64,000 nt of DNA from Hydractinia symbiolongicarpus. Lineage: Eukaryota > Cnidaria > Hydrozoa > Anthoathecata > Hydractiniidae. The notes beneath the pieces were generated by a model. The model searched no databases and had not been told where the DNA came from. It was given only the letters and a program-made list of their open reading frames with translations. Position numbers and translations under genes: made by a program. Where the stretch lies: positions 13,095,001 to 13,159,000 of the forward strand of contig NC_079885.1 in assembly GCF_029227915.1 (NCBI RefSeq), read 5' to 3'. Positions 3,231-62,812 of this stretch are shown piece after piece; position 1 is the first letter of the stretch; each line of letters begins with the position of its first letter.

Positions 3231-3356
3231 ATACAAAAATGCCCAGATATACTGGGCATTTTTGAAATTCCAGAGATAATGAGATGCAAATTTGACGCTC
3301 GTCTCAAGCTTTAACAGGGACGCATTAATACAAGCGAGATAGGAGATAGCCAAAAG

Positions 3357-3871
3357 ATGGATGTGTTGAAATGTTTGGATTTTGTATTTGATTTGCACGA
3401 AGGTTTTCCTTCTCACTGCCTTAAGCCTAAACAAGTTCAATGTTTTGAAGCTCTTTTAAAGGGCAGGGATGTTGTAGCTGTCCTTCCTACGGGTTATGGA
3501 AAGTCGTTAATTTTTCAACTTTTTCCTGACGTTATACCACAAAAAAGTACAAGGAATATCGTTATTGTGGTGTGTCCTTTATCTTCAATTATAGAAGACC
3601 AAGTGCAGTTTTTAAACAGTGTTGGTATTTCAGCAATGTCACTTCATTGCAATAATAGTTCCACAAGCTCTTATGAAAGTTTGTTTGCCGAAATGAAAAC
3701 TCATGAAGAAATCAATATATCAAAAAAGGTGCAAGAAGGGGATATAAATCTACTCTTCGCTCATCCAGAGGCAATACTTTCCGAGCAAGGCAGAAATTTA
3801 TTAAAGTCAACTGTGTATCAAGATAATGTTGTTGGAATTGTTATTGACGAGGCCCATTGTGTAGAATTTTG
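3357..3871 (+). CDS. RecQ-like DEAH helicase, first exon only
   Basis: The exon encodes the N-terminal part of an ATP-dependent RecQ-type DNA helicase. Residues 43-50 are LPTGYGKS (motif I, Walker A). VVCPLSSIIEDQ near residue 80 corresponds to motif Ia, and the exon ends in VIDEAHCVEFW with the DEAH box at residues 164-167. Reading continues to a GTAAGT donor at 3872; the stop just after it lies in the intron. The ATG at 3357 is the first in frame, about 20 residues before the QCF segment expected upstream of Walker A. No second helicase exon was found before the Harbinger remnant at 5161, so this is a truncated gene, or a gene copy carried in a repeat. RecQ-like copies of this type are common in cnidarian genomes (knowledge, not checked here). 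Confidence 0.75.
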
Positions 3872-3875
3872 GTAA

Positions 3876-7129: not shown

Positions 7130-7663
7130 AAATCTTGTTATATTGGAATATTTGAATATTTCAGTTTTTAGGCCTTCAAAATTTAATCTCTCGTTGAAGA
7201 TTATTTGAAAATGCTGAGGTGAATGGTTTGATAACAGCTGATCTAAAAAAGAAATTACGTTTAAAAAATGGGAAACAAGAATACAGTTTTACCATAAACT
7301 AATTTAACACCGGGTTATTTAATTATTGTCTCTTTAACCTCTTTTTGAAGAGAAAATTTATTAAAAAGATACAAATCAATGCCATGGGATGCACAAAGTA
7401 TATATATAAATATATGTATATAAATTTATTCAAGCTGGCTTTTGGTATCTTTGTTAAACAAGTAAAATATTAAGCAGGTGATATATGATTTTAAAACCTG
7501 TGGATGATATATACAGATTTTTTTTGTCGAAATCGATTAATATTGAGTTCAACAAATTTGATTGTTTATTATTCTTTTTTGATTCGAATTCTCGAATAGC
7601 CCGTTCCGATAAACAGGCGAAGTCGCAATGCATTATGGTAGTTGTAGTAAAAACAAAATAAAC

Positions 7664-9182
7664 ATGGCTAGCGCAAAAGGCATAAAAACAGAAAACAATG
7701 ATTTTGCTATTCTTAATCAGCCTGAAAACAGTTTTTCCCAAAATTTTTTACAACATTCCAATACATCTGGACCATCAGAAGATATTGATATTGATTTTGC
7801 CTTAAGAAGTCCGATAAACATACCGAAGAATCCAGGGTTAAAGAGTCCTGTTGGTGGCTTCACTTGTTGTGTCCCATCGTGCTACAACAATTCAAGAAAA
7901 ACAAATACTTGTCGTTTTATGTAATTCCAAAAAATCCTGAGTTACGAAAAATATGTTTAATATATATTTACGAATATATATTTTGTAGCAACTGATGGAC
8001 ACAGAGTATGTTCTGAACACTTTGAGGGTGGGAAAAAAACTTACATGAATAACATCCCAACAGTTGTTCCAAAGACTGTAAAACCAAAAGTATATAAAGC
8101 TAGGTATTCTAAAAACAGTCTTGGTATTAAAAGAAAGCTACCTGAACCACAAGAAAATGAAAAAGTGCCACAACTTACTAATGAAGAACTATTAATGCAA
8201 GAGATACAGGAGCTTAAAAGCAAGGTGTCACATTTGGAGTCAATAAGTTCGAAAAAAGAAAAAGAACTACAAAATCAAATAAATGAATTATCAGACACTT
8301 TGAATAAAACCAAGTTTACATTAGATCGTTTTAAGCACAATAAAGCACATTTTAAATTTTACACAGGATTTGAATCATATGACCTATTTTGTGTCGTTGT
8401 TGAATATTTACAACCTGCTGTAGCTCTCTGAATTATTGGGGTTTTAGCACTATTATGAAAAAAAGGATTCAAATCAAATCAAAAAGGGACGTTTGAGAAC
8501 ACTAACACCCGAGAAAAAGTTTTTTATGATTTTGGTACGCTTGCGGTGTGCTTTTCCTGTAGAAGACTTGGGAGTGCGATTCAATATGTCGTCAAGTAAT
8601 GTTAGCCGTATTCTTATAACATGGATTGACTTTTTGCATACAAAATTAAGACCTCTGACAATATGGGCCTCTAAACAAACCATAATATACACTATGCCAA
8701 AAAGTTTCAAGGACTTGTATCCTACAACACGATGACTGTACAGAAACATTTACTGAGATGCCAACATCTTATCAAAGCCAGTCTGACACCTTTTCAAATT
8801 ACAAGCATTAGTTGGGATAGCACCTAGTGGACAAATTACATTTGTCTCAGACTTATACGTTGGGAGGTCAAATGATCGAAAAATAACACAACATTGTAGG
8901 ATTTTAAAACTACTAGAACCAGGTGATTCCCTAATGGCAGACCGAGGCTTCAATATTAATGATGACCTCCCAGAAAATGTATTACTCAACATACCACCAT
9001 TTATGAATGGCAGACAAGAGCTAGAAACCAGACGAATAGCTTCGGTAAGAATTCAGGTAGAACGGGCGATTGAACGAATAAAAAACTATCGAATACTTCA
9101 ATCAATTTTTCAATTGTCGATGGCATCAGAATTAAACAAGATATGGGTGCAACCACTAATAACAGAACGCTCAGAAGAATAA
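7664..9182 (+). pseudogene. THAP-domain DDE transposase (ISL2EU type), decayed
   Basis: From the ATG at 7664 the first block is an N-terminal linker followed by the start of a C2CH THAP zinc finger (CCVPSCYNNSRK). A one-base loss near 7915 shifts the frame before FYVIPKNPELRK. The finger resumes with DGHRVCSEHFEGG and NNIPTVVP (8000-8070), then a Glu/Lys-rich coiled coil to about 8330. The transposase helix-turn-helix region (LVRLRCAFPVEDLGVRFNMS) is at 8500-8640. The catalytic core shows DDCTETF (first Asp), then ITFVSDLYVGR, LMADRGFNI (second Asp) and QVERAIERIKNYR (Glu). Frameshifts occur near 8430, 8735 and 8790. The gene has all family domains but is not translatable. Confidence 0.88.
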
Positions 9183-12410: not shown

Positions 12411-15400
12411 TCATACCCAGGTGTTGATGTTCCACTGTTGTTCAGTTACACGTGTGTCAATTGTCGGTGACTGTGGTAACTTTCGGTGGTATTTATTATT
12501 GTTGATGAAACCTGCGTAGCCATTAATGATATGCTCAGACGCGGATCCCTTTCTCCTAAGCTGTGGCGTGATGTTGGTTTGTTCTTGTAATATATACTGC
12601 TGATCGCCTAAAGTTTTCTTTCGCTCTTCGACTCCATTCTGGATGTCTGAGCTTGACCGTTGTTTTCTTGGACTTACCGGACTAAAATAAGAAAATATTC
12701 ATTTGTCTTTCCAATGGTTTTCCACTTTTTTTTACAAAAAGTTTAATCAGGGGAAAAATAATTAAATACCAGGGGAGACGTTTTGATTTTATGTGATCGC
12801 GTTTGATGAAGATTAAGTTAGCAAAAAAATATGCAACGTGAAACTTATCTATAAACACAAGGAAGATCTTAGTGTCCTCTTTCTGTAACATTATTTCCGT
12901 AAAGTGAAAAATGTCTTCCAAATCAAGATCCGGTTTCTTTTATGTGTGTTGTGTTCGTTAATACGTGATGCAAACACGACACACTTCATTGCAGTATTTT
13001 AATCATATTTAAGGTAAATCTATTTTCGAGATCATGCAAAGGATACCTAGGAATCGTGTGCATTTAAAGGTGCTATTTATTTTTTCAAAACAGTAAAAAC
13101 AAAACTCTACCTGTCCCGGCTGTTAATCGTACTTCGTTTTTCAATGAGGGTTTTCCTTCTGTGTTTGAAAGACTGCGTTATGGAAAGCTAAAAAAAGAAA
13201 AGAGGAATTTTTAAAATTCCTAGAATACGATGCAACTCTGATCAGATAGCTACTAACGTGCACTGCTCTTCCAACGTTCCAAGCAAAACTGCCAAACAAG
13301 TTTTTCACCAAGTTCTCTTCTTAACTTACATGCGATTACTGATAAAAGTTTTTCACCAAGTTCTCTTCTTAACTTACATGCGATTACTGATAAAAGTTTT
13401 TCACCAAGCTCTCTTCTTAACTTACATGCGATTACTGATAAAAGTTTTTTACCAAGTTCTCTTCCCATCTTTCATGCAATTACTGACACACATCTTTAAT
13501 CAGGCGTGAAGGAGTCAAAAGATAGAAACCATTAAGAATATCTTGTGTAACTTGTAAGTGGTCTTGGGACGAAGTTCAAACAGAAAATAAAGATCCCCGC
13601 CTTCTGGAAATTTTTTCAGGTCCTGTCATGCCATATACGTAGAAATTATCACACTATGTATGAGTTTTGGTTCCAGCGTACTAAACGTCTGACGGGTTGT
13701 TGCAATAAGCTTACGTTGTTTCAGAAAAGTCAGTAACTTTGTCACTAACTTTTTTAAAAAAAAGCTTACTGTTCGTTTCTTCTTCTTGACAATTTCTTCT
13801 ATGTTCTCCTTTTTTAGATTTTCAAGCTTTAGGTCTTTCTTTATGGAAGGCACGTTGTTAGAAGAGGAGAGTGGGTGGTTAGTAAACTTCGTAGTGTTTT
13901 GACTCAAGTCAACATCTAAAACTAAAAAACAATCTTTATAGTAACAAAATATATTTAAACAAAGCAAAAAGGTACTGCCAAATGTTTTGTAAAAACGAAG
14001 GTGGAGATATTGTATTTTCAGTTGACAACTTTGCTATAAATTTAGCCTTTTCACAAAATACATCTCGTAGTTATAAAGTCAGTATTTTTTTCACACAAAA
14101 AGTGGTCATCTTGAAATAACTTTTTTAAATTTGATTTTAAAAATCTGACTAATTTAGAACAAAAAGCTGATTTCTGAAATTTTTATATGACAACTTTTTG
14201 CCAAGTTTAAAAAATAAACACTGACTTAACAACAAAACATGCATACCTGAAGGGGTGGCTTCTAACATTCCTACAAAAATGGAGACAGTACTATGAAGAA
14301 GAAGTTGATATTTTCTGGCAATGGGCAAGTATTGGCTAACAACTTACTTTTGATTGATTGTGATGAATCATGTTTTAAATAATTTCTTGCTTTTCTTCCG
14401 CTGTAATCTCGGAGATTGATATCTGCTTCTAAATAAAAATTTATTTCTGCCGTTTGTTAAAAGTTGTTTCTTTCTTTTTTGTTTGAATTCTTCAAAGCAG
14501 AAATATTATCTACGATCTGTTTGGACTAAGTTGTTTCCAGTTGAGTTTTCGGGGGAATAATAGCAATGTCAGTTTACATTGCCGCTTTCATTTTCAACCA
14601 ATTAGCATTGCAGTTACCAAAAAATAATCCCTTACCATAATATTGGACCAGATCTCGAATGATGTTTTCCTTTCCGTGCATTGCAGCGACGTGAAGCGGT
14701 GTGTAACCCTAGAGTTTAGTTTAGAACATCTTAGCCACAACATCTCCACAATATCACAGTCAAAAAAGGCAAAGTAAAAAAACAAACGGTAAAAAAGTAA
14801 AAGAACTTACCCCCTGAAACAAAGTGAATGAAATGGTGCAAAATAAAGCATGAATAAAAGATATAAAAATAATTACATTCTCAAAAAACTTATTCACTAG
14901 CAAATCACTTCTCTCCAGATTTGCCTGTACACAGTACCGTTCACAAATTGTGATGGGCCGTTATTCACAATATCCATTGAAATATGCAATAGCGATAAAT
15001 CTTCGCGAAGCACGAACCAAGGATTTTTTAGGATATTAGTGGGTTTATAGATTTACAAGCGTGAATCACAAAGAAACGGATTTCAACTAACAAAAAGGCG
15101 GACATTGTTAGTTCTATCAAGATAGTCAAAATAAATGATTTAAAATAAACTTACATTCTAACGTGTCAGCAATAAAATGAAGAACATAAAAAGAGAAATA
15201 AAAATTAATTTCAATAAACCTAGCACGGTTTTTTCATCACCATATACACGAAATCAATAAAGTGATAAACGAGTTTGTGAACGCAAAAGAAACAAACTAA
15301 GCGGGCTAAGTATCATTACAAAAGTTCATTCTAGGTGTGGAAATTAGTCTTGATTCAAAGCCATGTCTTACCGTTCTGATATTTGTGTCAATACGTTGCT

Positions 15401-18400
15401 CGTACAGCCACCTGATTACATCGATACGATTTCTTTTGGATGCCCAATGAATTGCTGTCTACAATATGAAAAAGGAGCGAAATTTGATATTCATAATTTA
15501 ATTTCTTTATCTAAAATAGCTGAGCGAAAAAAGGTTCTCTTTATAGCCCTTCAAAATACTTGGTTGAGAGTTACTTGTGGAGATAAAGAATTTATTGATT
15601 CTAACCTCGGCACATGCGCAAACATTTAAGTCAACAACTCCAAAATTTAAGGTAAAAAGCGCTTTTAGGTCAATCTATTTTAAATGTAAGAGTAAATGTT
15701 AAGCGGTACTTACATACTACGATGAAGAACACACGACATATCAGGAGGAGAGCATAAAAATAAAGACAATTAGTAAAATATGATAAAAATGAATAAATAC
15801 AAAAAACTAGTCGGTGGCCCGTGGAAAAATCCACGGGTTTGCCCGTTCTTTTTATACCGCATTGCGTGCACCTCACTACTTGCGGTACTATTTTGCGTTA
15901 CAGACAGACGCACACGGGTATTATAATATAGACTAGTCGTTGCCCGTGGAAAAATCTACGGGTTCGCCCGTCCTTTAAATTTACCCGTCGCAACAAAGTG
16001 GATAAAAATATATCGTATTTGATATTTGTGTTTCCGTAACATAATTTTCTAACTCAGCGGGGGGTCCGCGCAGAGACAGACAGACGGAATAGGCTATTAT
16101 TAAAGAGATGATTAGAAAGATTCCAAAAAAATTTGCTTTTTAGCCCTTTCATTTCAGAATCAATATTATCGTCTCAATTACCAAGCAGATATTTGACAAA
16201 AACCTCACAAAAATATTTATGGATTTATCCGAAATTAAGACCTAAGCAAGAGGTTTTTTGGCTCAAAATTTTTCTTCCCCACAGAAAAATACAGCCGCAG
16301 TAAAGTAAAAATGGATGGATATCATTATTAAAACATTAAGAAGTTGAGCTTGCGTCATAACAAGTATGTGTAAAGTTTCCATGAGACAGCAACAACTTAG
16401 TTAGCTAGACACAAGGTTTGTGGTTTTTAGACCCATGACCACACCTTCTCTTAATGTTGGCTAATATTAGTTTACCAGTTGCATGTTATAGCTAACTACC
16501 ATAATAATTATATATGTCCATAGTAGTTATGTCTACTAATTGATTTTGTTTGAGCTGTTCAACTTCTGAGCATGAATTATGGAAGACGTAGCTAGCCAAA
16601 AAATCTGAAGCGTATACAAAGTTTTAAGGAAATTTGCTATACACGTTTTTTTTTATAAGCAACTGCATTTTTGGGTTCAGCCTGGGGTTGCTAAGGCCTT
16701 TTTGCAATTTCAGCCTCAAAGTTGCTTAATGGTTGCTTATCTGTACAAATGCATCTGTAATATAACCTGGAATCTCATTGAACAAGTAAAAAAGCAGACA
16801 CAGGCAATGAGTTTAAAATAAAATCAAATAGAGTAAATCAACATTACAACTATTTTTTATTTCACTCAAATGAAAATGTGGGAAAAAAATTCTGATTTAG
16901 TAAATATCAAGGACAGAGGAGGGTTATGGTCAGTAACCGATAATGTTTTCGGAATTTTTTGTACAGATTCTTCTCGTGGAAGACGGATCTAAGTGGTTGC
17001 TAAGTGTGTAGTAGAATTCAGCCTAAGTTGCTTACCACTCTGCCAAAACTCAGCCTAGGCAGTTGCTTAATTTTTGACCATATTTCAGCCTCAGTTTTTG
17101 TAGCAACCAGTTGCTTATAAAAAAAAAACGTGTAATCAGTATAAAGCATGGCGGAGAAAGATATTTTTTGGAAAATTTGTGTAAACTTGTTAGTACTTCA
17201 TATTTATATGATTGGTTCACTAATTTCAAAGGATATACATTTGTTCGTCAGTTGTTTCAAGGAAGGAGCACAAAGGCGGTCCCTGAGTGCTTAAACCCAC
17301 CATTTGAGCTACAAAAACATTTGCAATTTTCACCAAACTTAAAGATGGCCTAATGACTGGAACGAACCCACAACCTATTGGGCATGAGTCAACGCTCGAC
17401 TGACTAAGCCGAGGCGCCGATAAGCCATTTTTGACATCATGTCAATTTTAATAAAGCTACATGTGCAAAAAACATTAAAAGGGATTCCTATGCTTGAAAT
17501 AAGTCAGATAGATCTACTTAAAACGTGTTTTAGGTTTGGGACGGAATGCTTTATCCAGTCCATAGAATTTGGACTTACATTAACTATGCCAGCAAAAAAA
17601 GGGTTAGATATACCCCAAGAGACTTTTCAGTCATTTACGGTAACCGCAGCTTAATGTTTTTAATGAACTTTCATGAATTAACTATTAAGCTTCGGGGACA
17701 CGAAAACATTTTTCATGCAATTGCTACAAAAAAATGTTGTTTCAATCACATCTTTTTGCCCGTGTCGCATGGGTGCTAGTTTATGAAACAAATTTACATG
17801 TATCTATGAGGAAAGATGGCGGTTGTAAAAAAACGTGGTAATAACATCAATAGCACTTCTTCTTGATGAAGAAGTAGAAACGAAAAGGCAAACAAGACGC
17901 TCTATTTAGACAAGACCATGGTTGCTTCGCCAATAAATTGATGGTTACCATAATTTGTCTAAAGAGCTAAAAGAAGAAGATTCAGAAGGTTTTAAAGGTT
18001 ATTTGAAAATGGACGTTAAGCACCAGAGTGCTTTGTGATTTTTATAAAAATTAATAAAGCTTGATTTTTCTTCATCAGAAAGCTTTTGCTTTGGTCGCAC
18101 GTTTTGAATTTCCACCATCTTGCTTTTGATGCTGGTATGTTATCAAATATTTTGGTTTGTTTCGATTTGGATAAACGGATTTTAATTAATTAAAAACAAA
18201 AATGTTGCAAAATATGATAAAAATGTTGCAAATTCTAGTAATTTAACGAGGGGCCACACGGTAACATTTTCATGCGCTTTACAACAAATCGTATTTTTTG
18301 TTTCACTTGCATAAAATTTATAGCTTTACAGTTTGTTTTGAATAAACTTTCATGAATGAATGTTCTTGAAAGTTTTAGCAAGAAAAAGTTTTGCTTAAAT

Positions 18401-19766
18401 GGCTAGGATCAAACTTTTTGAGGAAGGAGCATATACAATACCATAAAAACTAACTTTACTACATAAAGCACTCACCCCCTGAATCCAGCGAAGAATAAGA
18501 ACATAAAAAAGAAAAGGGAAAATTATAAGTTATGTTAAAAAAATGTTACATGTTAAATGTTACAAAAATAATATTTAAACATTAGTGTGAAAGGTGTAAA
18601 TGGTGTATTAGCCCCAAAATAAGTGCACTTTTCGTGAACTGCGCTATAATAAACATATGCGCAAAAATTAGAAAGCAATAAATGTTACCACGACTGGAGT
18701 ATCGATGATTACTTTGGTTTGGCTGTGGTCAATATCGGGGTATCGCATAAAATTTCCTGCGTTTTCTTTGAGTAAAGACAAAACCTGTCAAATTTCCCGT
18801 ACCTAACAAAACCTGCCAAATGTCGCGTGTTTCTCAAAACCTGCCAAATGTCGCGTGTTTCCAAGGTTTTTGTTCCCTTACTAAATTACAAGTTTTACAT
18901 GCAAATAGGCTTTTCCACCCTCTTATCAAAGCTTCACTAAAGCCTCTGATTGACCCTCCAACGGAATCGTTTAAAACATAAATATGCAAATAGTTTGGGT
19001 ACAAAGTTGCAGCTGAGAAATGAAATGAAGATTAGAAATGAAGATAAACTCACAGTGAAGTAGTCCTGAAACAGCCAACATAAAACGAAAAGAAAAATAG
19101 TAGTAATCAATGAAATACGAGAGGTCAAATATACATATCCTGTTAGCTGGAATTAGAAAATGCAAAAGATTCCACTGTTTATCGCAAGTGCTGATGAAAA
19201 ATCACAAGGTTGTAAAAAGTTGGAGTTCGTAGAAGTCGATTTTCTTGCCTATTATACATTTTTAACTAGTTATTAAAGTTAGTTATGAAAATTTCTATAC
19301 GTAAAAGACTGGGTAAATAATGCAGCTGTTTGCACAGCTAAAAAAAGGTTACTGCCAACTTAATTGCAATTCATCCAGTAACTAAAATACGTATTTTTAC
19401 CTTCTTATTGATGAGCTCATTATCCACTTTGTACAAAGTCTTCAAGTTTTCAAGCTCACATGCTGACGCAGCATAACACCATCGTTTTTCTAATTCATCC
19501 ACCTTTTTAGAAAGAAAATGTAGTATCTTTGAAAGTTTCATATAATATAGCCGGTGACAGCTTAAATCATTGGAGCTGGAGTTTAATTAATTATTTGGCG
19601 AGATCTTTTTCGGTATATTTTTATGTTGTCTTTTAATGATTTACCTAAGAAATCGCAAAACCTCACAAAATGCCTTTTTTTTTCAACTCACCGACAAGCT
19701 AATGGTAGATATGGGTCGGTTTCGCATTTTTCTCACGGCATCGTCAACCATTAGATACGTCGCCAT
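12411..19766 (-). CDS. Sosondowah (SOWAH)-like ankyrin-repeat protein, 14 exons, four of 3 nt
   Basis: Exons on the minus strand, 5' to 3': 19692-19766, 19401-19502, 19054-19065, 18476-18478, 15714-15716, 15372-15458, 15155-15157, 14811-14813, 14636-14708, 14348-14428, 14247-14270, 13770-13921, 13111-13187 and 12411-12681. They total 966 nt, giving 321 codons plus TGA, with every junction in phase and GT-AG. The start ATG lies in a CCATGG context and opens MATYLMVDDAVRKM. Residues 26-59 begin VDELEKRWCYAASACE. Residues 60-94 spell DYFT-G-Y-TAIHWASKRN, an ankyrin repeat. Residues 95-120 spell N-G-GYTPLHVAAMHGKE, a second repeat. DINLRDYSGRKARNYL follows, as in SOWAH proteins. The C-terminal half is basic, Ser-rich and probably disordered. 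SOWAH proteins are poorly characterised, so no molecular function is asserted. The family name rests on the GYTALHW...GGYTPLH...RDYSG pattern; another small ankyrin protein is possible. Confidence 0.92.
13300..13491. repeat. Tandem repeat, 4 x 48 bp, in a SOWAH-like intron
   Basis: The unit begins GTTTTTCACCAAG and includes CTTACATGCGATTACTGAT; copies start at 13300, 13348, 13396 and 13444. On the minus strand it is open as a 16-residue repeat (KLRRELGEKLLSVIACK-like) over about 70 codons. Neither flank offers a splice acceptor in a compatible phase, so I treat it as intronic. Three units contain TTTTATCAG, nine bases, then GTAAGT. Confidence 0.8.
13770..13921 (-). CDS. SOWAH-like exon 12
   Basis: This 152-nt exon encodes a basic Lys-rich segment (EENIEEIVKKKKRT-like; visible as NIEEIVKKKKRT at the end). 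Two in-frame acceptors exist six bases apart (TTTTTTAG before 13921 and TTTTAG before 13915), which would add or drop two residues. The donor GTAAGC after 13770 keeps phase 0 into the next exon. The ORF continues past this donor, and a second GTAAGC lies downstream, but its phase does not fit. Confidence 0.8.
14811..14813 (-). CDS. 3-nt microexon (GGG, Gly96)
   Basis: On the minus strand the sequence is TTTGTTTCAG, GGG, GTAAGTTC. The single codon supplies Gly96 of the N-G-GYTPLH motif. It lies 102 nt from the next exon (14636-14708). Confidence 0.85.
15155..15157 (-). CDS. 3-nt microexon (AAT, Asn95)
   Basis: On the minus strand the sequence is GACACGTTAG, AAT, GTAAGTTTAT. The codon supplies Asn95 between ...TNIRT and Gly96. 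TTTTTATGTTCTTC lies about 20 nt upstream of it. Confidence 0.83.
15714..15716 (-). CDS. 3-nt microexon (TAT, Tyr65)
   Basis: On the minus strand the sequence is CTTCATCGTAG, TAT, GTAAGTACC. It supplies Tyr65 of T-G-Y-TAIHW. TTTTTATGCTCTCC lies upstream. A 2.76-kb intron packed with transposons separates it from the preceding microexon. Confidence 0.83.
15807..16108 (-). mobile_element. Two tandem Helitron-like short elements
   Basis: Units 15807-15932 and 15933-16108 each begin on the plus strand with CTAGTCG and the hairpin CCCGTGGAAAAATC(C/T)ACGGG, followed by GGTTCGCCCGT or the like, and end in TATAGA/AGAGA. In minus orientation this gives TC...hairpin...CTAG, the structure of a non-autonomous Helitron. 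They lie in the long SOWAH-like intron. Confidence 0.7.
16642..17132. mobile_element. 491-bp palindromic MITE with TA duplication
   Basis: The termini are CACG followed by a T-run and ATAAGCAACTG, inverted at both ends and flanked by TA (16640-16641 and 17133-17134). The arms carry repeated TCAGCCT...GTTGCTTA motifs. It is non-coding and lies inside the SOWAH-like intron between the TAT and GGG microexons. Confidence 0.75.
17280..17425 (-). repeat. tRNA-like SINE fragment
   Basis: On the minus strand, GGCTTAGTCAGTCGAGCG (A-box and D-arm like) is followed by a CTCATGC anticodon-loop-like stretch and GTGGGTTCGTTCC (B-box like, one base short). The T loop is defective, so this is a SINE or pseudo-tRNA, not a gene. 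Confidence 0.5.
17440..17800. repeat. Dispersed repeat segment shared with 37560-37660
   Basis: The words AAATAAGT(C/G)AGA(T/C)AGAT and TTTAGGTTTGGGACGGAATG...TTTATCCAGTCC recur at 37580-37640 in the same orientation. It is non-coding and intronic in the SOWAH-like gene. Confidence 0.5.
18476..18478 (-). CDS. 3-nt microexon (GGG, Gly64)
   Basis: On the minus strand the sequence is GCTGGATTCAG, GGG, GTGAGTGC. It supplies Gly64 between DYFT (exon 19054-19065) and Tyr65. A TTTTTTATGTTCTT stretch lies about 20-30 nt upstream. Confidence 0.85.
19054..19065 (-). CDS. 12-nt microexon (Asp-Tyr-Phe-Thr, residues 60-63)
   Basis: On the minus strand the sequence is GGCTGTTTCAG, GACTACTTCACT, GTGAGTTTATC. 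It links INKK to Gly64, completing the D-x-x-T/S-G-Y-T start of the first SOWAH ankyrin repeat. Confidence 0.87.
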
Positions 19767-40435: not shown

Positions 40436-43400
40436 TCAACGTCTTGCCCTTTTCCCGCCATTTCTTTCGTTTCTTTGAAAGCTAAAAAAAAATGTGATCG
40501 TAGATGTGTCCATTGTCTAGTGAGAAATGACTATACAAATACCCATGAGTAAAACGAAGTTATAGGACAATCTCAAAAAAGTCATCAAGCGATAGTTTAA
40601 TGTAACTTACTGAAATAGTTGGTCCATGCTTCTCGACTCTTTTTCTTCCTCATCATTGACCTTAAAACGGGCGGTAGATGGACTCATAAAACGTGTAAAA
40701 CAGTACCCGCACCCTTCTACCCCAGGTCGCATTTTCGTCTCTTCTTTTTAGTGCTTTATATCAATGTTTAAAGTCTGTCCACAGAAAAACAACTAATTCT
40801 AATTAAGAATTGTCGTTAAAAGAAACAAAAAGTTTGTTTCAACTAAGAAAATTGAAAATGTATATACTACTAATTTATTTCAAAACTTTTCGCAATGATT
40901 CGTCACTGTTTAACCCAAGTTAGTTGGTTGGTATCAAACGAATTGTATTAACCATTTTTTACCTGGCGAAAATCTGCGAACATGGCTATTCTTTCTTCGT
41001 TCTCGCTTTCAAATACAACAAAATCTTTAATATATTTCTTTCGATTTTTACCTTTGCCGGCATAAAATTGCTGAAAAATAAAAACAAAGATAACAAGAAG
41101 AGCAGAAAACAAAAATATCAAAAAAATCATGATGACGGCGAGAATAAAACGAAAAACAATAACGACAGTCACGACGATAATAACAACAACGATTAAAATG
41201 ACGATAAAAACTAAACTTGATCATACAAATGAAATTACTTTTTTAAACACTTTGAAATTTTTAACTTTCTTTGAATTGTTTGAGACGGGTTTTGACGCAA
41301 CAGAATTTTGTTTTGTTTTCGTCGTATTGATAACTAACGGTGCAAACTCAGTAGTCACTAGATCTCTATCGGTACAGTCCAAGTCAGGATCCTCTTTAGG
41401 AATTAGAACAGTGGATTTCTAAAATAACATTGGTATTACAACAGCAAATATGCAACTGCCTTCTTGAATCGGTCTTTCTACACAATACCTTAAGGAGACA
41501 AATAATAAGGGTTAAATTTAAAAAAATAAAAATACAGTGGACTCTTGATAACTCCAACCTTTACCGGACCTTAAAATAAACTTCGACCTATCGAGAGTTC
41601 GAGTTTTCGAAAATTTTGGTAAGACGAGAAAAAAAACTGATAGGTGAATTTGGAAGCTTTATACTTTTTTACCTATTTGCTATGGAAAAAGTTCGTTACA
41701 AAGCTTGTTTAAGGCTTTTTAAAGCTCTCCCAGGCTAACAAGCCTTCCATTTTCAATATAAGAGAGGGAATTTCGCTCTTATGTTCGAATAAAAAAGTTT
41801 AGAATCTAGTTAAAAAGATCGAATTCTACTGGAATAGCTTGACATAAAAAGAGAAAGTTCGACTTATGGAGAGAAATTCGTCCAAGGGGCCGACAAATTT
41901 GTTCGGCCAACCGAGATGTTTGAGTATTCAAATTATAGAGATTTTTTTAGCCTGAAAAGGATTGTGGGTTAGGAACGGACACATTTATTCAACCTAACGA
42001 GATGTTCGAGTATTTGAGTTATCAAGAGTCAATTGTATAAAAAATTCCCGAAAAAACTAAAATACATGAAAATAATTGCACGCAAAAAAATTGAAAAGTA
42101 GCGAAACGCTAAAATAAATCTAATCAAAATTAAACAAAATCGACACGAAAAAAATAATGTACGTTTTAGTCACAAGTTCTTGAAGTCATTAAAAATGTCA
42201 GAATTACGTGGTGACATTAAAAAGACTGAGAAACTAATTAACTATTTTAGCTATAATGATCTTTACCATTGAGTTACAACAAATTAAAAACGAAAACATC
42301 ACACATCAGTAAAATGAAAAACAAAAACAAAAACACCACACATCAGTAAAATGAAAAACAATACAAAAAAAAAACACCACACATCAGTAAAATGAAAAAC
42401 AAAAACAAAAACACCACACATCAGTAAAATAAAAAACAAAAACAAAAACACCACACATCAGTAAAATAAAAAACAAAAACAAAAACACCACACATCAGTA
42501 AAATGAAAAACAAAAAAAAAACAAAAACACCACACATCAGTAAAATGAAAAAAAACAAAAAACAAAAACACTACACATCAGTAAAATGAAAAACAAAAAC
42601 ACTACACATCAGTAAAATGAAAAACAAACAAAAAAAAAACAAACACTACACATCAGTAATATGAAAAACAAAAACACCACACATCAGTAAAATGAAAAAC
42701 AAAAACACCACACATCAGTAAAATGAAAAACAAAAACACCACACATCAGTAAAATGAAAAACAAAAACAAAAACACCACACATCAGTAAAATAAAAAACA
42801 AAAACAAAAACACCACACATCAGTAAAATGAAAAACAAAAAAAAAACAAAAACACCACACATCAGTAAAATGAAAAAAAACAAAAAACAAAAACACTACA
42901 CATCAGTAAAATGAAAAACAAAAACACTACACATCAGTAAAATGAAAAACAAACAAAAAAAAAACAAACACTACACATCAGTAATATGAAAAACAAAAAC
43001 ACCACACATCAGTAAAATGAAAAACAAAAACACCACACATCAGTAAAATGAAAAACAAAAACACCACACATCAGTAAAATGAAAAACAAAAACAAAAACA
43101 CCACACATCAGTAAAATGGCAAACAAACACGGAAACACCACAGATCAATAAAATAAAAAACAAAAACACCACACATCAGTTAAATGGAAACCAAAACCAA
43201 AAACACATCAGTAAAAGGGAAAACAAAAACTCAAGCATCACGCATCAGTGAGATGGAAAACAAAAATTGATTTTAAACCTACCTTGTTAACTGTCGATAA
43301 GAATCCTTTCAATGGCACAAGCTGTTTATCTTCCGATGGTAAAAATTCTTCACTGATAAACATTCTTTCCTTATCATTATTTTTGTCAAGTAAGTACGAC

Positions 43401-46400
43401 ATATCTCCATCATTGTTGTCCTCTTCTCTTAGTTTATCTTTTGTAATAGCTCTTGATACCATGTTGTCGCATAACATATCGGTATTATTTTCACTCTGTC
43501 TACTTTTTACCGAAGCTCTTTGGACCATGTTGCCTTCACTATCAGAAACAAAAACTTCTTCACTGCTAGCTTCTTGTGAACTTAAAGCAGCCTTTTTAAA
43601 CCGCCAGTCCGATTCATTGCCACGATGTCGAATTTCATCTTGTTTTTCATTTAATCCATTTTTGGATTTTTGATCCGTAATTCTTGAGATATTTGTAACT
43701 TTTTGGTGTGTAATTGACACACCGTCTGGTATGCTATTTTGACCGTCATTACCAACAACATAAGAAACATTACCTGGACAAGATGATTCATGAATATCGA
43801 ACATGAACGGATCATTGTACTCGTCTTCTTCATATACACGGCAAATAATCTTAGAACTCAGGAATGTATCGGGTATTGCTTTTTTAGACTGTGGAGTGAA
43901 AAACATATCTGAATGTGTCTTAGGAGTATCATGCTGAAGACTTCCTTCAAGCGACTCTCCTTCCAAAATTTCCACATCCCCTGCCTTTTTCGCTTTTTCA
44001 GTTATTATCGACTTCCCCTTGTCTTCTGATTTTTTTGATGCTTTAGAATGTTCGAATACTTTTAATAAAGGTTGTATGCCGAAATTAAAATCGTCATCGT
44101 CATCATCTATTGTAATAATATCTCTTTTCGATGCCGATTTCGTTTTTTCATTTGTATTTGGCTTCCGTAAACATAGACTTGCTAATTTCGACTTTTTTAA
44201 CGCAGCTGAGGTTTCATCAAAACTACATAAATTTTGTTGAATTCGTTTCCTAACAACGTAGATAAACAAAATATTAGAATATTAGACAATTTTATGAATA
44301 TTTTCCGTGTTCCATCCTTTTTCTGAAACATCTTTGTTCTGAATTAGTAACAATTTCGTCAGGAGTTAAATTGATTATTCGCATTGTTTACTCTCGTACT
44401 GTAGTTTACCCATGCTTACCTAGTTCAGGAAATACGGACACTTTTATGTGAATAAAAATAGCACGAATCTTAACGTGAAATGTCCCTCACAGATGTTGCG
44501 TGTCAAGTAGAATTTCTTGGGTGTTTCATTAGTTCTTCAAAATTTTGTACGCAACTGCCTAGTTTGCCTGATCGAATGTCGCAATTTATGTTTCATTGTA
44601 TGTTTAATATTAAACAAAGACACACCTGTACACATCCCAAATTTTCACATAGGTGTAGGTTATAAGAGATTTTAAGGAGTTTTGTTTTTTTAGTCGCATT
44701 GAGTAACTTGTTCTCGTGTTCTACGGTACATGCCTACATTTGATTAAACAAAATAACTATACCTTTTCATGCCAATACTGTCATTCTCTTCATTCATACA
44801 AGTTGTACTGGCACTTTTAGTGTAATTTTCTTTCTTTGGAAAGCTCTTAAAACAAATGAAAGGATGCATCATATAAATTACATATCTTGAATATAAAACA
44901 AAGAGTTCCAATCACGAAATCAAAATTGTACTTGTGTTTTTCACAAATTAAAGATATAGCGCCAAAAACCATCACAATTTTGAATGGAATGTTCCAGAAA
45001 AATTCATTTACTTGCTGATACTTTTTGAGGCAATAAATTTCGTGGTAGATTGCATAGCGAATTATTGGTAGGATGATTTGATCACCTCGTAAGAGTCTTC
45101 TTAGATTATTTTAGTACCAACTTCAACTTTTCTTCTTCAATTCTTTTTTCGATCAATTTTAGGCATAGGTAATAAAAATTTTTTTCTTTAAAAAAAGGCT
45201 CGTGTAGGCATTTACACCATACGAAGTGGAAAAGCAGAGTTGCAACATTTTTTTTCGTGTACATATCAAAGGCAAATCATCTTGAATAAAATTAGTTTTC
45301 TAAACAAAAATCCCAGGAATTTACTAACTTTTTCCCAACAGTTACTGTTTTGACAAAACAGAATTTTATTGACTAAAAAAGCCCAGACCTGAATAAAAAA
45401 AATAAAAAAATTCCTAGACCTCATCCTTGCAACTTTTTTTCAGGAGTTTTTCTCTTTATTTTTGCAACTTTCCAGATTATTCTAGGAGTTTTATCTCTAT
45501 GTTTGCAACTTTTCCTTATTGCCCAAAGTTGTTCTCTATTATTGCAACTTTCCCTTACTTTCCAGAAGTTTTTTCTCTATTTTTTCAACTTTCCAGATTT
45601 TTCCAGGAGTTATTTCTTCCGGGATTAGCGGTGTCTCTGTAAAAAAGACGACCACAAAAAGAAACAGATGGTATAAAAACTTCAAACATAGTACTGTAGA
45701 TGTTTGGGCGAATGTTGGCTTAGTGATGAAGTACAGAAGATCATGGGTTCGACTCTCGATCAATTCATTACTTTAACAACGAATCCAAGAACAAGTCCTT
45801 GCTAAACAAAGTTTTTCTTGATAAAAGCAGATAGGCACCTCAGAACCATGGCTGAAGGATTACGCATATTGGACATTATCGGCCGAACAATATGATTTGC
45901 TTTTTTTGAAACCAAAAGATTTTCTTACAAAAATCTAATTAATTTTTTTTCTTAGCAGCCAGTATAAGAACAATATTTTTGATGACTTAAGCGGTTGAAA
46001 CTGTGGTGTACGAATTTCGTAGCTTAAATTGAAGCTTAAAATAGGATCCCTTCGTAGAATCCCCTTTAATAGCAATATTAATAGAAATAATCGTAGCTAA
46101 AATAAAATTTACTAAAGCATTCGATGGGGACAACTGTGTCGCTACCATGGTGTCGGTTAGTGTTTGCGTGTGTGTGGTAGCAGCAAATGATGATGCTAAA
46201 ATCGAAAAAATTTGTAAATATAAGTTATCTAAAATACAACTTTTGCTTCAAGTTATGTAGTAGGAATTTCCGTTATCAAAATATATTTCCCATAGTTTCC
46301 ATTATGTGTATTGTGATTGTGCAAGCTGAATTATATTCTTAAAAAGAATATGACACTTTATTTTCAAATGGACACAAATTAATATGCACACAAATTTGAA

Positions 46401-47644
46401 TGAATAATGAAACTATTGGAAAACAGTCATGAAAAATTCCAGAACAATGCCTGAAATATCAAAACCAGTACTCTGCAGTTATTGGCCGTATTATCTGATC
46501 ACTCTTCGTACACGCCAAAGGATTTTTTGTAAAAACTCTAAATTTTTTTTGATTTTTTTGCTAGCAATCTCTCTTTTTTTAAAAGAAAATTTCTAGCCTT
46601 CGGCGTATGCCCTACTCCAAAATTCGGATAATCACGGATGGACATTCTCAATTTTTTTTTCTAATCGTAAGAAGAAACCAAAAAAAAAGAAATTCAAGAA
46701 TAACAAAAACTGTATAGCATTTTTATTTTTTTGTTTTTGTTATTACACGATAAATTGAACATAGCTTACAAGTGGACGTCGTTGGGTTGCAATATGATTC
46801 TAACGATACATGTAAGATAGCGAGACCAATCTCTGACTCTTTTATAGTTCGAAGATGGTGACTGCAATAAAATTTTTAGTATTAATAGACAACTGGCATG
46901 AATAAATTACCAATACAGGCTATCAGTTGTAAATTGGGTTTATGATTGCAACGAGCGAAATATTTGGTAACAAATAACAAGGACAGGGAAAACTCTCGTT
47001 AAATTTCGTCAAGTTTGAATGATGAAAATGAGAAAGGAAATTAATAAATTAGTCCTGCAATGCTGTTAATTGTGGCTAAAATTAGAAAAATTGGGCAAAG
47101 GCAGTTAACCAAAAACACTATAAAAGTTATATCTCACCTTTTTAATTTCGAAATAATTTCACTCATCCATGTTTTTTGTTCCTCCCGGAAATTATTTCGA
47201 TCTTTACTTTCAGAGCATAAAACTATCGTTTGATTTGAAGACATGTCGCGAAATAGTTTTAAGTCTCTCGTTTCTTTTAATACAATGCTACCACCAGCGC
47301 ACTCGACAGCTTTTTTCATTCGTTTGTACTAAATTAGAAAAGTTAAAAGTGAAAGTGTCGTCCTAACTGAATTGTTTTTTCTTATGGAAGCACAATGTTC
47401 ACTGCTCACTGTTTTAGACCAATATAATAAAATTGGTATAAAATATTTTCTGGTTGTATTTCTTATTCTTCTCAAAGTCCAGAATTTAGTCATTTTTTGA
47501 AGCGCGATAAGACTTTTAATAAAGAAATATGTGCCATTTTTTTAAACAATATGTGATCTAACGCTCTGCACATGGTGAAAAATTCAAAGAAAATGAGCTT
47601 GATAAGGCTTAACATACCATTAGCCCCTACTTTTAAAGAAACCT

Positions 47645-58722: not shown

Positions 58723-61700
58723 ATGTCTAATGAATTTGGAATCAATAACAGCAGTAATACTGTTCGTGGTTTTAGGCTGTTTAATAATCTAGGTAGGTTT
58801 GTGTTGCAACAGCATGAAAATAATCAAGTTTTAGTAGGTGCCATCTTGAGGCAAAGACCACATATTTCTTAAAATTTTGAATTGTCACAAGAAATGCAAA
58901 GAAATGTAGTACCACGTTTATCTTATAATGATGATGTTTCCTTAGCTAGACGCAGGCAAAATGCTCAATGTGTTGCCTCTTTATGCTGATTGGAATCGAC
59001 TGATCAGGCCAATAGTAGGCGGCATAATGCTGTTAAACATGCGGCTAGGCGCAATGCAGAACCAGCTCAGCAAACTGGCAACAGACAACTTACGGATGCT
59101 CAACTGCATGTTGCTGCTAGACGATTAGAATCTAATGAGCAGGCTGCCAATAGACGTGCTGAAAATGCTCGTAAACAAGCCATGACTCGAGAAATGCATA
59201 ATGACGAGCACGTTATTAATAGGAGGCAAGTTAATGTCCAAAAACATGCCGTTGGTCGTGCTTGCCGAAATACGTTGTATTATAATATTGCACGTCAAAA
59301 TGTATTGCCTAATATATATTTCTTAGGTGCTATGGACAAAAAATGTGAGTATTGTCAGGCTTTAAAGTTTAAAAATGAGAATTGTTTTAAATGTTGTCAC
59401 CCTGGTAAAGTTGCATTAAATAATTTGTCTCCGTACCCTCAGCAGCTTAGGAAATTATTAACAAATACAGATACTGTTCAGGCAATTTTCAGGCAAATAT
59501 ACGTAAGTATAATAGTGCAGTTGCATTTGCTTCTTTTGGAGCAAACCTTCGTCCCCCACCTGGCCGGGGACCACCATGCTTTCGTAACTGTGGTCAAATA
59601 TGGCATCGTGTTGAGGGCCTTCACCCTCCTGAAGGACAAACCCCTGTTTTTAACCAACTTTATATTTATGAAGCAGGTAGGGCACTCAACGAGAGAATGG
59701 CATGCCAAGAAAATAATGCCTGTCGTGAAGATGTGATACAAACTGTTTAAGATGCCATGGACAGATTAAGCCCGTTTGCTGCTGCCTATAGGTACATGGC
59801 TGAAGTTGAAGCTGAAGAATTAAATCAGGTAGCAGCACAAAACCGTGCTCCATCTGAAGTGCGTATGCACATGAGAGTTGGCAACGACCGAAGGCGCTAC
59901 AACTTGCCACATCATGATGAAGTTGCTGCAGTATTTGTTGGCCAAGATGGAGCACCTCCTGGAAACAGGGATGTTGTTATCTATCCGTGTGGAGGTGATT
60001 TACAGAATATTTCCACAATGTCTGCAAACTTGGAGCCAATGGTGTACCCTCTTTTTTTTTCCAAGGGGTGAACCAGGTTGGCATAATAGGATACCATGTT
60101 GCTGTACGTGCAACCGGTACTTGGAACACTACTACAATGTTGCAGTATTATACTTACCGTTTAGCTGCTCGGGAGTATTTCAGCCTGCTTCATTATGGTA
60201 AGAAATTGTTTCAGCAGTATTGTGTGGATTCTTATGTTAAAGTTGAAGGTAATAATTTAAATTATATTCGAGCAAATTAAACCAACCTTTGTGTTGATAG
60301 TTATGAAGGTTTAGCTGACCATTTGAATGCATGAGCTGAAGAGCGAGGCCTTCAACCAGGTCGTATTGTTGTTCTTCCTTTAAGTTTTCAAGGAAGTCCA
60401 CGTGCCATAGCTCAAAAATATCAAGATGCTATGGCTGTTATTGCTAAGTTTGGAAAACCTGATTTTTTTCTGACTTTTACATGCAATCCAAAATGGCGTG
60501 AAATTACAGAAAATTTGTTTGCAGCCCAACGTGCACACGATCGGCCTGATTTAGTTTCTCGAGTTTTTAAATTGAAACTAAATGAACTCCTTAAAGATGT
60601 TACTGAAATGGGAGTTCTAGGTAAGACTATAGCACATGTTTATGTTATAGAATTTCAAAAAAGGGGTTTGCCTCATTGTCATTTGTTAATTCATTTAGAT
60701 CCCAATGACAAACTTAGGGATGCAGATGACATAGACAGTGTTATTTCAGCAGAAATTCCTAATCAACAGAAACGTCCTGAGCTGTTTGAAATTGTTCGAT
60801 CGCGCATTATTCATGGACCATGTGGACATCTGAATCCTAATTCCAGATGTATGGAAGATGGTGTTTGCACAAAAAGTTTTCCAAAGAACTTTTTAGCATC
60901 TACGGTAGCTGAAGTCAACGGATATCCATTATATAGACGTCTTAATAATGGTATATATATCATTGTCAATAATGTTGACATAGATAATCGCTGGATTGTT
61001 CCATATAATCCATGGCTTTCCAAGAAATACAATGCACATATAAACTTGGAGGCTTGGAAGTCTGTTAGATCTTTTAAATACCTCTATAAATATATTTATA
61101 AGGTCATGATTGTGCCAACATTGAGATCAATGAACGTATTGAGGTGCAGACATTTTTAGATGCGCGGTATGTCAGTGCACCAGATGCAATATGGCGTCTT
61201 TTTGCCAGTGCACTTGCTAAATAATCATATTGTTTATTTTCAGCAAGGACAGGCTGAAGTGGCTTTGGACAGAGCTGCAGATCAGGCTACAAAATTAAAA
61301 GCTTGGTTTGTGTTAAATGCAGAGAATCATGATGCTCGTCAATATATGTATCCAGATATTCCTCTTCATTTTGTTTTCAATAAGAACAAAGTTTGGAAAC
61401 CAAGACAACGCGGTCATGGTAAAATTGTATCCAGAATGTATAGTGTACGAACTCGCGCAGGTGAGCTTTTTTATTTACATATGTTGCTATTGCATGCACC
61501 TAGTGCAACTTCTTTCGAAGATTTATGAACTGTCAATGGCAATGTTGCTGAGACATTTCGTGACGCCTGTTTATTGTGTGGACTCCTGCAAGATGATACT
61601 GAATGGAACAATACTTTAGCGGGAGCTGTTAACTTTTAGATGCCTCGACAATTGAGGCAACTGTTTGCGGTGATACTTACTCACTGCGAACCTTCTGATC

Positions 61701-62812
61701 CTTTTACTTTGTGGACAAGGTACAAAGATGCAATGTCAGAAGATTATATTCGCCAAATGAATAAGGAGCAGGCTGAGTACAGACTGCTTCAAGATATTAA
61801 TTCTGTACTTAGGCAATTTGGTAAATCTCTTACGGATTATAAAATTGTTGTTCTTTTAGGTGGTGATTTTTCAAAGTTACTGCCTGTTGTCAGAAAAGGA
61901 GAACCAACTGAAATTTTGGACATGTGTTTAAAAAGTTCTCCATTATGGCACTTGGTTAAAGAATTTTGATTACATCGAAACATGAGAACAAGGCCAGGAG
62001 AACAACAATTTGCTGCATGGCTTCTGCAACTTGGAAAAGGTGTTTTACCTGTTTGGGAGCAAGAACCTTTCCCAGGTGCAATTGAAGTACCATCCCAATG
62101 TGTGATACAAAATGAATTTATTGTTGATACTTTGTTTAGGGATCTTTCACCAGAAATTATGGCATCATCTGTGGCATTAACACCCACAAATGATGATTCA
62201 CTTATCATTAATGATAAGGTGTTGGCGCTGTTGCCTGGTGAAGAAAAGGTTTATTTTAGTGCAGACAATGTTGTGTGTGATGATGAGGAGGAACAAAATC
62301 AATATCCGGTAGAATTTTTAAATAGTATCACACCTTCAGGTATGCCTCCTCATTGCCTTAAATTGAAAACTGGTGCCATTGTTATGTTATTAAGAAACAT
62401 AAACATAAATAAAGGTTTATGTAATGGCACTCGCCTTATTGTACGATATCTTCACGACAACTGTGTTGATGCAGAAGTTCTCACTGGAAATGCTATTGGA
62501 GACAGGGTACTTATTCCAAGGGTACAATTGGCACCTTCGGATACAGGTATGCCTTTTGTTTTACGTCACAGACAACTTTCACTGAGGTTGTCTTATGCTA
62601 TGACAATAAACAAAGCACAAGGTCAAACCTTTGAAAAGGTTGGTGTATTGTTGCGCAGGCCATGTTTTTCTCATGGACAATTTTATGTTGCTTTTTCTAG
62701 AGCAAGAGCATTTGATGATGTTAGAGTAAGTGTTGTTCCCTCATCCAAGCAAGGATTTTTTAATGGGAAATGTTATACTCAAAATATTGTTTACCATCAA
62801 ATTCTTACATAA
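58723..62812 (+). pseudogene. Autonomous Helitron Rep/helicase, decayed and internally deleted
   Basis: Frames joined in order give a Helitron protein. 58723-59500 is the N-terminal arginine-rich repeat region (RR.NA...A.RR) with in-frame stops, ending in a CEYCQALKF...CFKCCHPGKV zinc-binding segment. 59490-60060 follows in a second frame (LYIYEAGRALNERM-like, then RYNLPHHDEVAAVF). The Rep nuclease at 60431-61159 has FFLTFTCNPKW, the two-His motif RGLPHCHLLIHL and the two-Tyr motif KYLYKYIYK. 61160-61530 and 61640-61820 lead to the helicase. PIF1 motifs remaining are VVLLGGDFSKLLPVVRKG, LTPTNDDS, SYAMTINKAQGQTF and SHGQFYVAFSRAR. The Walker A and Walker B blocks are missing between about 61825 and 61840. 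Rep nicks and joins DNA and the helicase unwinds it during rolling-circle transposition. The many stops and the deletion make this copy inactive. Confidence 0.9.

Follow-up and report, generated by a model that had tools for sequence, protein, structure and literature searches.

A short animal ankyrin-repeat gene on the minus strand of the 64-kb window (the whole stretch of DNA analysed here) very probably carries four genuine spliceosomal exons of a single codon each, arranged as two tandem pairs after a 12-nt exon. This reading is supported by the frame, the fit of the residues, the 33-residue pitch of the repeats, the lack of any other solution among the GT-AG arrangements enumerated, and an acceptor signature. 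The last of these, a long pyrimidine tract combined with an AG-exclusion zone, had not been used by the sequence-only reading that first proposed the exons.

The minus strand of the window was read and the gene rebuilt by script. As that reading had proposed, 14 exons join into 966 nt in a single frame, that is 321 codons plus a TGA stop (Table 1). Every border from the 5' edge of the 12-nt exon through the 5' edge of the 73-nt exon is in phase 0. A start at 19541, which replaces the first exon and its intron, also gives an open frame (13 exons, 930 nt), and the model is therefore uncertain at its 5' end; the four codons are unaffected. Repeats lie in two of the introns. A 48-nt tandem repeat occupies 13250-13489, between the 152-nt and 77-nt exons, and the 2,759-nt intron separating the first GGG from TAT harbours a perfect 20-nt inverted repeat (16646-17127) whose arms are 442 nt apart and which may be a MITE-like insertion.

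Table 1. Exons of the rebuilt gene model, in the order in which they are joined (positions are those of the window; Y50 and AG-exclusion zone are defined in the text).
Feature	Size (nt)	Positions	Strand	Basis and remarks
Exon 1, MATYLMVDD...	75	19692..19766	-	frame and GTGAGT donor, without homology support
Exon VDELEKRW...INKK, ankyrin region begins	102	19401..19502	-	gene model
Micro-exon DYFT	12	19054..19065	-	frame; acceptor signature as in the 3-nt exons
Single-codon exon GGG (Gly)	3	18476..18478	-	CAG/GGG/GTGAGT; Y50 0.76; AG-exclusion zone 149
Single-codon exon TAT (Tyr)	3	15714..15716	-	TAG/TAT/GTAAGT; Y50 0.72; AG-exclusion zone 90
Exon TAIHW...NIRT	87	15372..15458	-	gene model; in-frame TAG immediately upstream
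Single-codon exon AAT (Asn)	3	15155..15157	-	TAG/AAT/GTAAGT; Y50 0.72; AG-exclusion zone 62
Single-codon exon GGG (Gly)	3	14811..14813	-	CAG/GGG/GTAAGT; Y50 0.74; AG-exclusion zone 66
Exon GYTPLHVAAMHG...	73	14636..14708	-	gene model; in-frame TAG immediately upstream
Exon with final ankyrin portion (ADINLRDYSGRKARNYLK)	81	14348..14428	-	gene model and Pfam
Exon	24	14247..14270	-	frame and splice borders alone
Exon	152	13770..13921	-	frame and splice borders alone
Exon, unusual donor GTAGAG	77	13111..13187	-	frame and splice borders alone
Last coding exon, TGA stop	271	12411..12681	-	frame and splice borders alone

Each of the four triplets had been placed between an AG acceptor and a GTRAGT donor, and all four were found there, every acceptor being YAG. 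On the minus strand the borders read ...GGATTCAG/GGG/GTGAGTG for the first GGG, ...CATCGTAG/TAT/GTAAGTA for TAT, ...CACGTTAG/AAT/GTAAGTT for AAT and ...TTTCAG/GGG/GTAAGTT for the second GGG. The triplets are internal, no longer than 30 nt, flanked by AG and GT and frame-keeping, as is expected of spliceosomal micro-exons. Across 64 kb, YAG-N3-GTRAGT occurs five times on both strands together (0 plus, 5 minus), and four of the five occurrences are these exons. Under a first-order Markov model, 0.030 such sites are expected in the 3,595 nt that separate the 12-nt exon from the 87-nt exon (the first stretch) and 0.0055 in the 663 nt that separate the latter from the 73-nt exon (the second stretch), about 0.035 together, with two observed in each; these expectations are not clean p-values because the pattern was chosen post hoc. 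For the whole window, both strands, 1.07 sites are expected, and the rate elsewhere in the window (one site) leads to about the same expectation as the Markov model. Only two GTRAGT sites exist in the second stretch, and they are the donors of AAT and the second GGG.

The case against chance is weaker by the gene's own weight matrix than by this count. Its training set came from the gene's exons of at least 12 nt (nine acceptors, nine donors); the set is small and biased to TAG acceptors and does not make a strong test. Of 172 minus-strand AG-N3-GT sites, two of the four exons rank 1 and 2, the first GGG comes 8th and TAT about 11th. On the plus strand, ten sites reach or exceed the score of the weakest of the four. 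By this matrix the gene span contains four such sites, whereas 300 simulations averaged 0.72 and never exceeded 4.

The residues supplied by the triplets fit an ankyrin protein. Ankyrin repeats have a period of 33 residues, in which G-x-T-P-L-H comes after the hairpin turn. TAIHW and TPLH are 33 residues apart with Asn-Gly (N-G) and 31 apart without it. Pfam finds Ank_4 (69.6 bits) and Ank_2 (56.9 bits, residues 35-128). In phmmer controls, Gly-Tyr (G-Y), N-G or all four residues were omitted, or all four were replaced by alanines; for each of the four controls, the matches listed at E <= 1e-33 comprised 5 to 7 proteins, and the comparison covers the five ankyrin proteins common to all five match lists. 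Scores in bits, given in the order full, without G-Y, without N-G, none of the four and four alanines, were 232.3, 212.0, 203.6, 180.3 and 200.6 for 4rlv_A; 226.6, 198.7, 200.0, 175.9 and 198.2 for 7tw3_G; 199.6, 182.6, 178.7, 159.1 and 171.6 for 5y4d_A; 191.4, 174.8, 162.9, 149.4 and 163.2 for 5vkq_A; and 145.6, 148.4, 132.8, 124.5 and 153.2 for the designed protein 6mol_A. The full version thus exceeds all controls in four of the five proteins, the exception being 6mol_A. Taken together, the alanine and deletion controls indicate that spacing alone restores part of the score and that the actual residues add more. Pfam scores of the variants are equivocal: with length-matched cores, the full version is best in three of five ankyrin models, while Ank_5 gains 0.4 bit when G-Y is left out and Ank_3 gains 0.4 bit when N-G is left out (the 151-aa version lacking all four codons, of unmatched length, was left out). 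The earlier claim that the codons complete G-Y-TAIHW and N-G-GYTPLH is supported by the residue fit, the pitch and the phmmer controls.

The family name given to the gene is less secure. It had been called SOWAH-like, a resemblance in motifs. SOWAH proteins have an N-terminal winged-helix domain, and their orthologs would carry G-F/Y-T and S/N-G-GYT at the corresponding places. The ankyrin part of that designation stands with the Pfam matches; no winged helix was found, the 321-aa protein, whose model is uncertain at the 5' end, having no non-ankyrin Pfam match at E <= 1. Searches of viral and prokaryotic nucleotide collections found no relatives, and Rfam gave no match at the gathering threshold.

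The acceptors of the tiny exons differ from those of their neighbours. Y50 denotes the fraction of pyrimidines in the 50-nt segment that ends with the AG; the AG-exclusion zone is the AG-free stretch upstream, with AGs within 12 nt ignored. Next to the values in Table 1, the 12-nt exon has a Y50 of 0.72 and a zone of 74 nt, and the eight acceptors of longer exons (>12 nt) have 0.36-0.64 and 12-46 nt. A Y50 of at least 0.72 is reached by 0.95% of the 3,042 YAG sites in the window and by 6 of 170 in the gene span. For AG exclusion, the five exons of at most 12 nt separate from the eight others with a one-sided exact p of 0.0008; neither feature had a role in the choice of sites, but the two are mutually related and were sought once the sites were known. 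When both strands were scanned for Y50 >= 0.66, YAG, N1-27 and GTRAGT, exactly five sites were returned, the four 3-nt exons and the 12-nt exon. In the window, 17 YAG sites combine Y50 >= 0.70 with an upstream stretch of 55 nt or more that lacks AG, and these exons account for five of them; GTRAGT follows within 12 nt in all five, and within 60 nt in none of the 12 others. The latter (49461, 49458, 47642, 41070, 31081 and 26176 on the minus strand; 6698, 6802, 20163, 27992, 47214 and 57638 on the plus strand) may be partly ordinary acceptors of unannotated genes and partly simple repeats.

Branch-point-like words are found far upstream; examples are TACTAAT before TAT, where the A is at -54, and TTTTAAC before the first GGG, at -57. 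Nearer YTNAY words also exist, such as TCCTGAT with its A at -25 before TAT, and no YTRAY word was found upstream of the second GGG. Such words are a poor guide to branch points here, because seven of the eight ordinary acceptors have no YTRAY-type word, or just YTNAY within 9 nt of the AG. Distant branch points are perhaps used, as predicted from these motifs. The word TTTTATGYTCT occurs four times in 64 kb (both strands), and the copies at 18508, 15759 and 15191 (minus strand) begin 30-43 nt before three of the exons; no YAG is present in the examined stretch downstream of the fourth, at 47222. The word may belong to the pyrimidine tract or to the branch region, and is treated as a lead only because it was found post hoc. 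For the 80-nt upstream flanks at 18478 and 15157, the alignment score exceeds that of all 200 shuffles. This is also the case for the pairs 15157/14428 and 19065/15157, and we therefore make no claim of a common origin.

These data can be set against explanations in which the triplets are not exons. If they were chance motif matches, the larger exons would be joined directly and the protein would lack the four residues. Both direct joins are in frame, and two of the sites rank weakly by the gene's own weight matrix; nevertheless, only 0.030 and 0.0055 motifs are expected in the two introns, the residues and the repeat pitch fit, and the acceptor signature is independent of the motif. On number, place, frame, residue fit and these acceptor features, chance was rejected as highly improbable. 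We give even less credence to recursive-splicing (ratchet) or decoy sites in long introns, which would be non-coding. Acceptor and donor lie nearly back to back behind a strong pyrimidine tract, resembling the ratchet points of flies, in which the two are juxtaposed (PMC8605326). A ratchet point, though, requires AG directly followed by GT, and exactly 3 nt are retained between them in four of four cases; YAG immediately before GTRAGT occurs nowhere in the 64-kb window (0 plus, 0 minus), one of the host stretches is just 663 nt long, and the retained codons match the missing residues.

Least probable of all is that the residues come from another overlooked small exon or splice choice. Micro-exons are hard to spot by eye, and three-exon chains or non-GT-AG sites could still hide such an exon. 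All AG-(1 to 6 nt)-GT candidates in both stretches were enumerated as one- and two-exon GT-AG solutions with introns of at least 40 nt. The first stretch has eight 6-nt candidates, none coding Gly-Tyr or Gly-Phe, and the second has no 6-nt candidate. Two-exon chains totalling 6 nt number 154 in the first stretch, of which five encode Gly-Tyr or Gly-Phe and only the observed one has GTRAGT donors throughout. They number six in the second, where two encode Asn-Gly and both donors are strict only in the observed one; an AG-AAT-GT at 14879 (GAG acceptor, GTAATT donor) could also give Asn. Under the 40-nt limit, no single 6-nt exon or alternative two-exon chain therefore combines strict donors with fitting residues. 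The 87-nt and 73-nt exons are not extendable in frame because of the in-frame TAG directly upstream of each, and by eye no GT donor is reached by a 6-nt extension of the 12-nt or 87-nt exon.

A different alternative grants that the exons are real and has them alternatively spliced, so that single codons at the tips of two neighbouring hairpins would be toggled to give up to 16 in-frame proteins. Skipping any of the four keeps the frame, and since all are 3 nt long and in phase 0 every subset is equally frame-legal. The regulated neuronal micro-exons of the Drosophila eMIC program are marked by long AG-exclusion zones and pyrimidine tracts (PMC8797185), both of which are present here, and usage of the 3-nt exon of RPS24 differs among tissues (PMC11162997). 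Against this, loss of N-G breaks the 33-residue pitch and lowers the score in all five compared ankyrin structures, and loss of G-Y lowers it in four of five. The weak 5' sites of fly eMIC exons (PMC8797185) are absent, the donor being GTRAGT in four of four, although this was a search criterion. The UGC motif, which in micro-exons of the eMIC or SRRM4 type lies near the 3' splice site, shows no clear enrichment: TGC lies within 60 nt upstream of 3/4 three-nt exons, 0/1 12-nt exon and 3/8 longer exons. As omission of either pair would strip residues from an ankyrin turn, constitutive inclusion of the four codons is favoured and appears probable from the sequence, and regulated use seems unlikely.

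If the four single-codon exons are real, their splicing would probably proceed stepwise. An exon of this size would be too short to be bound simultaneously by U2/U2AF at its acceptor and by U1 at its donor, and its two introns would be removed singly. The length of the tract, and perhaps a branch point far upstream, would make the acceptor strong without help from exon sequence. After ligation of the codon to the exon next to it, the perfect GTRAGT donor (or the acceptor) would act from an exon of normal size. Such a process would amount to a ratchet that leaves 3 nt, where the recursive splice points of flies leave none. The upstream-first order is not assured, because SRRM4-dependent human microexons are more often spliced downstream-first (downstream intron strongly first in 58%, upstream first in 26%), and the authors of that study suggest that U1 and U2 are unable to assemble together around such micro-exons (PMC10250204). 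A bolder possibility, which we consider quite doubtful, is that a dedicated acceptor module would add one codon per step, with the codons individually selectable in up to 16 in-frame proteins. With similar reserve, the module may be pictured as a distant branch point, a 50-nt pyrimidine tract, AG, one codon and a perfect donor; just as tentatively, the resulting proteins would vary in single residues, located at the tips of two adjacent ankyrin fingers.

Other features were noted elsewhere in the window. A Helitron in several open pieces spans 58990-62809 (plus strand); by Pfam, 60335-61156 contains Helitron_like_N and 61970-62809 a Pif1-type helicase 2B domain, while its piece at 58990-59733 has no Pfam match. 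A DDE_Tnp_4 transposase piece (Pfam), presumably Harbinger-like, lies at 8787-9179 (plus strand), and the neighbouring ORFs at 7613-7921 and 7961-8428 have no Pfam match above the cut-off. An exon or ORF at 3315-3872 (plus strand) encodes a DEAD-box helicase (Pfam), RecQ-like by eye. At 43241-44281 (minus strand), an acidic and serine-rich open frame of 347 aa has no Pfam match and lies where the strand skew of the window is greatest (GC skew -0.31, AT skew +0.36 at 42001-44000).

How exons that are smaller than the footprint of splicing factors come to be recognised has long been an open question, touching on the steric limits of exon definition. With two tandem pairs of one-codon exons, all four having a long-pyrimidine acceptor and a perfect donor, the gene constitutes a natural repeated experiment on it. 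RNA aligners and gene finders that disallow 3-nt exons would miss the codons and yield two damaged ankyrin turns. Among the open-licence PubMed Central papers listed, none was found to describe a gene with four single-codon exons, or single-codon exons in tandem pairs. The sequence-only reading had called the arrangement exceptional, which holds for four per gene in two pairs and not for size itself, given that 3-nt exons have long been known and 1-nt exons are known in plants.

Exons of 3 nt have been described in mouse NCAM and Drosophila troponin T (PMC8042270), and human RPS24 has micro-exons of 3, 18 and 22 bp (PMC11162997). All three genes share with the present one a spliceosomal one-codon exon between introns, but one such exon per gene is described there, against four in two tandem pairs here; moreover, the fly troponin T and RPS24 exons are used alternatively, whereas those described here lie within a folded repeat, where their loss would probably be harmful. 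In 2015, the smallest constitutive exon on record was 6 nt and the smallest alternative one 3 nt (PMC4674806). The 1-nt exons of plant APC11 (PMC4674806) and VPS55 (PMC8831610) are likewise ultra-short and were missed by annotation, that of APC11 being constitutive and that of VPS55 having a conserved GTRAGT donor; they differ in belonging to plants, in measuring 1 nt and in being described singly in each gene.

For the 4-bp constitutive exon of human MPC1, 67 bp upstream (pyrimidine-rich from -67 to -43) and 6 bp of the donor suffice (PMC9929638). This module of a long pyrimidine-rich stretch and a donor resembles the one described here, although the MPC1 exon is a lone one whose length is no multiple of three. 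The micro-exon genes (MEGs) of flatworms combine many small exons, several of them divisible by three and down to one codon (PMC7653826). By the published definition (seven or more exons, of which half or more are <70 nt and a multiple of 3 in length; PMC7653826), the present gene is not a MEG: 6 of its 14 exons qualify (12, 3, 3, 3, 3 and 24 nt) and the longest run is three (12, 3, 3). It also differs in being an ankyrin gene. Finally, in a peptidase gene of land plants and Zygnema, intron gain left adjacent micro-exons of 5 and 12 bp (PMC11096116), and it is plausible, by analogy with that gene, that intron addition also produced the single-codon exons described here.
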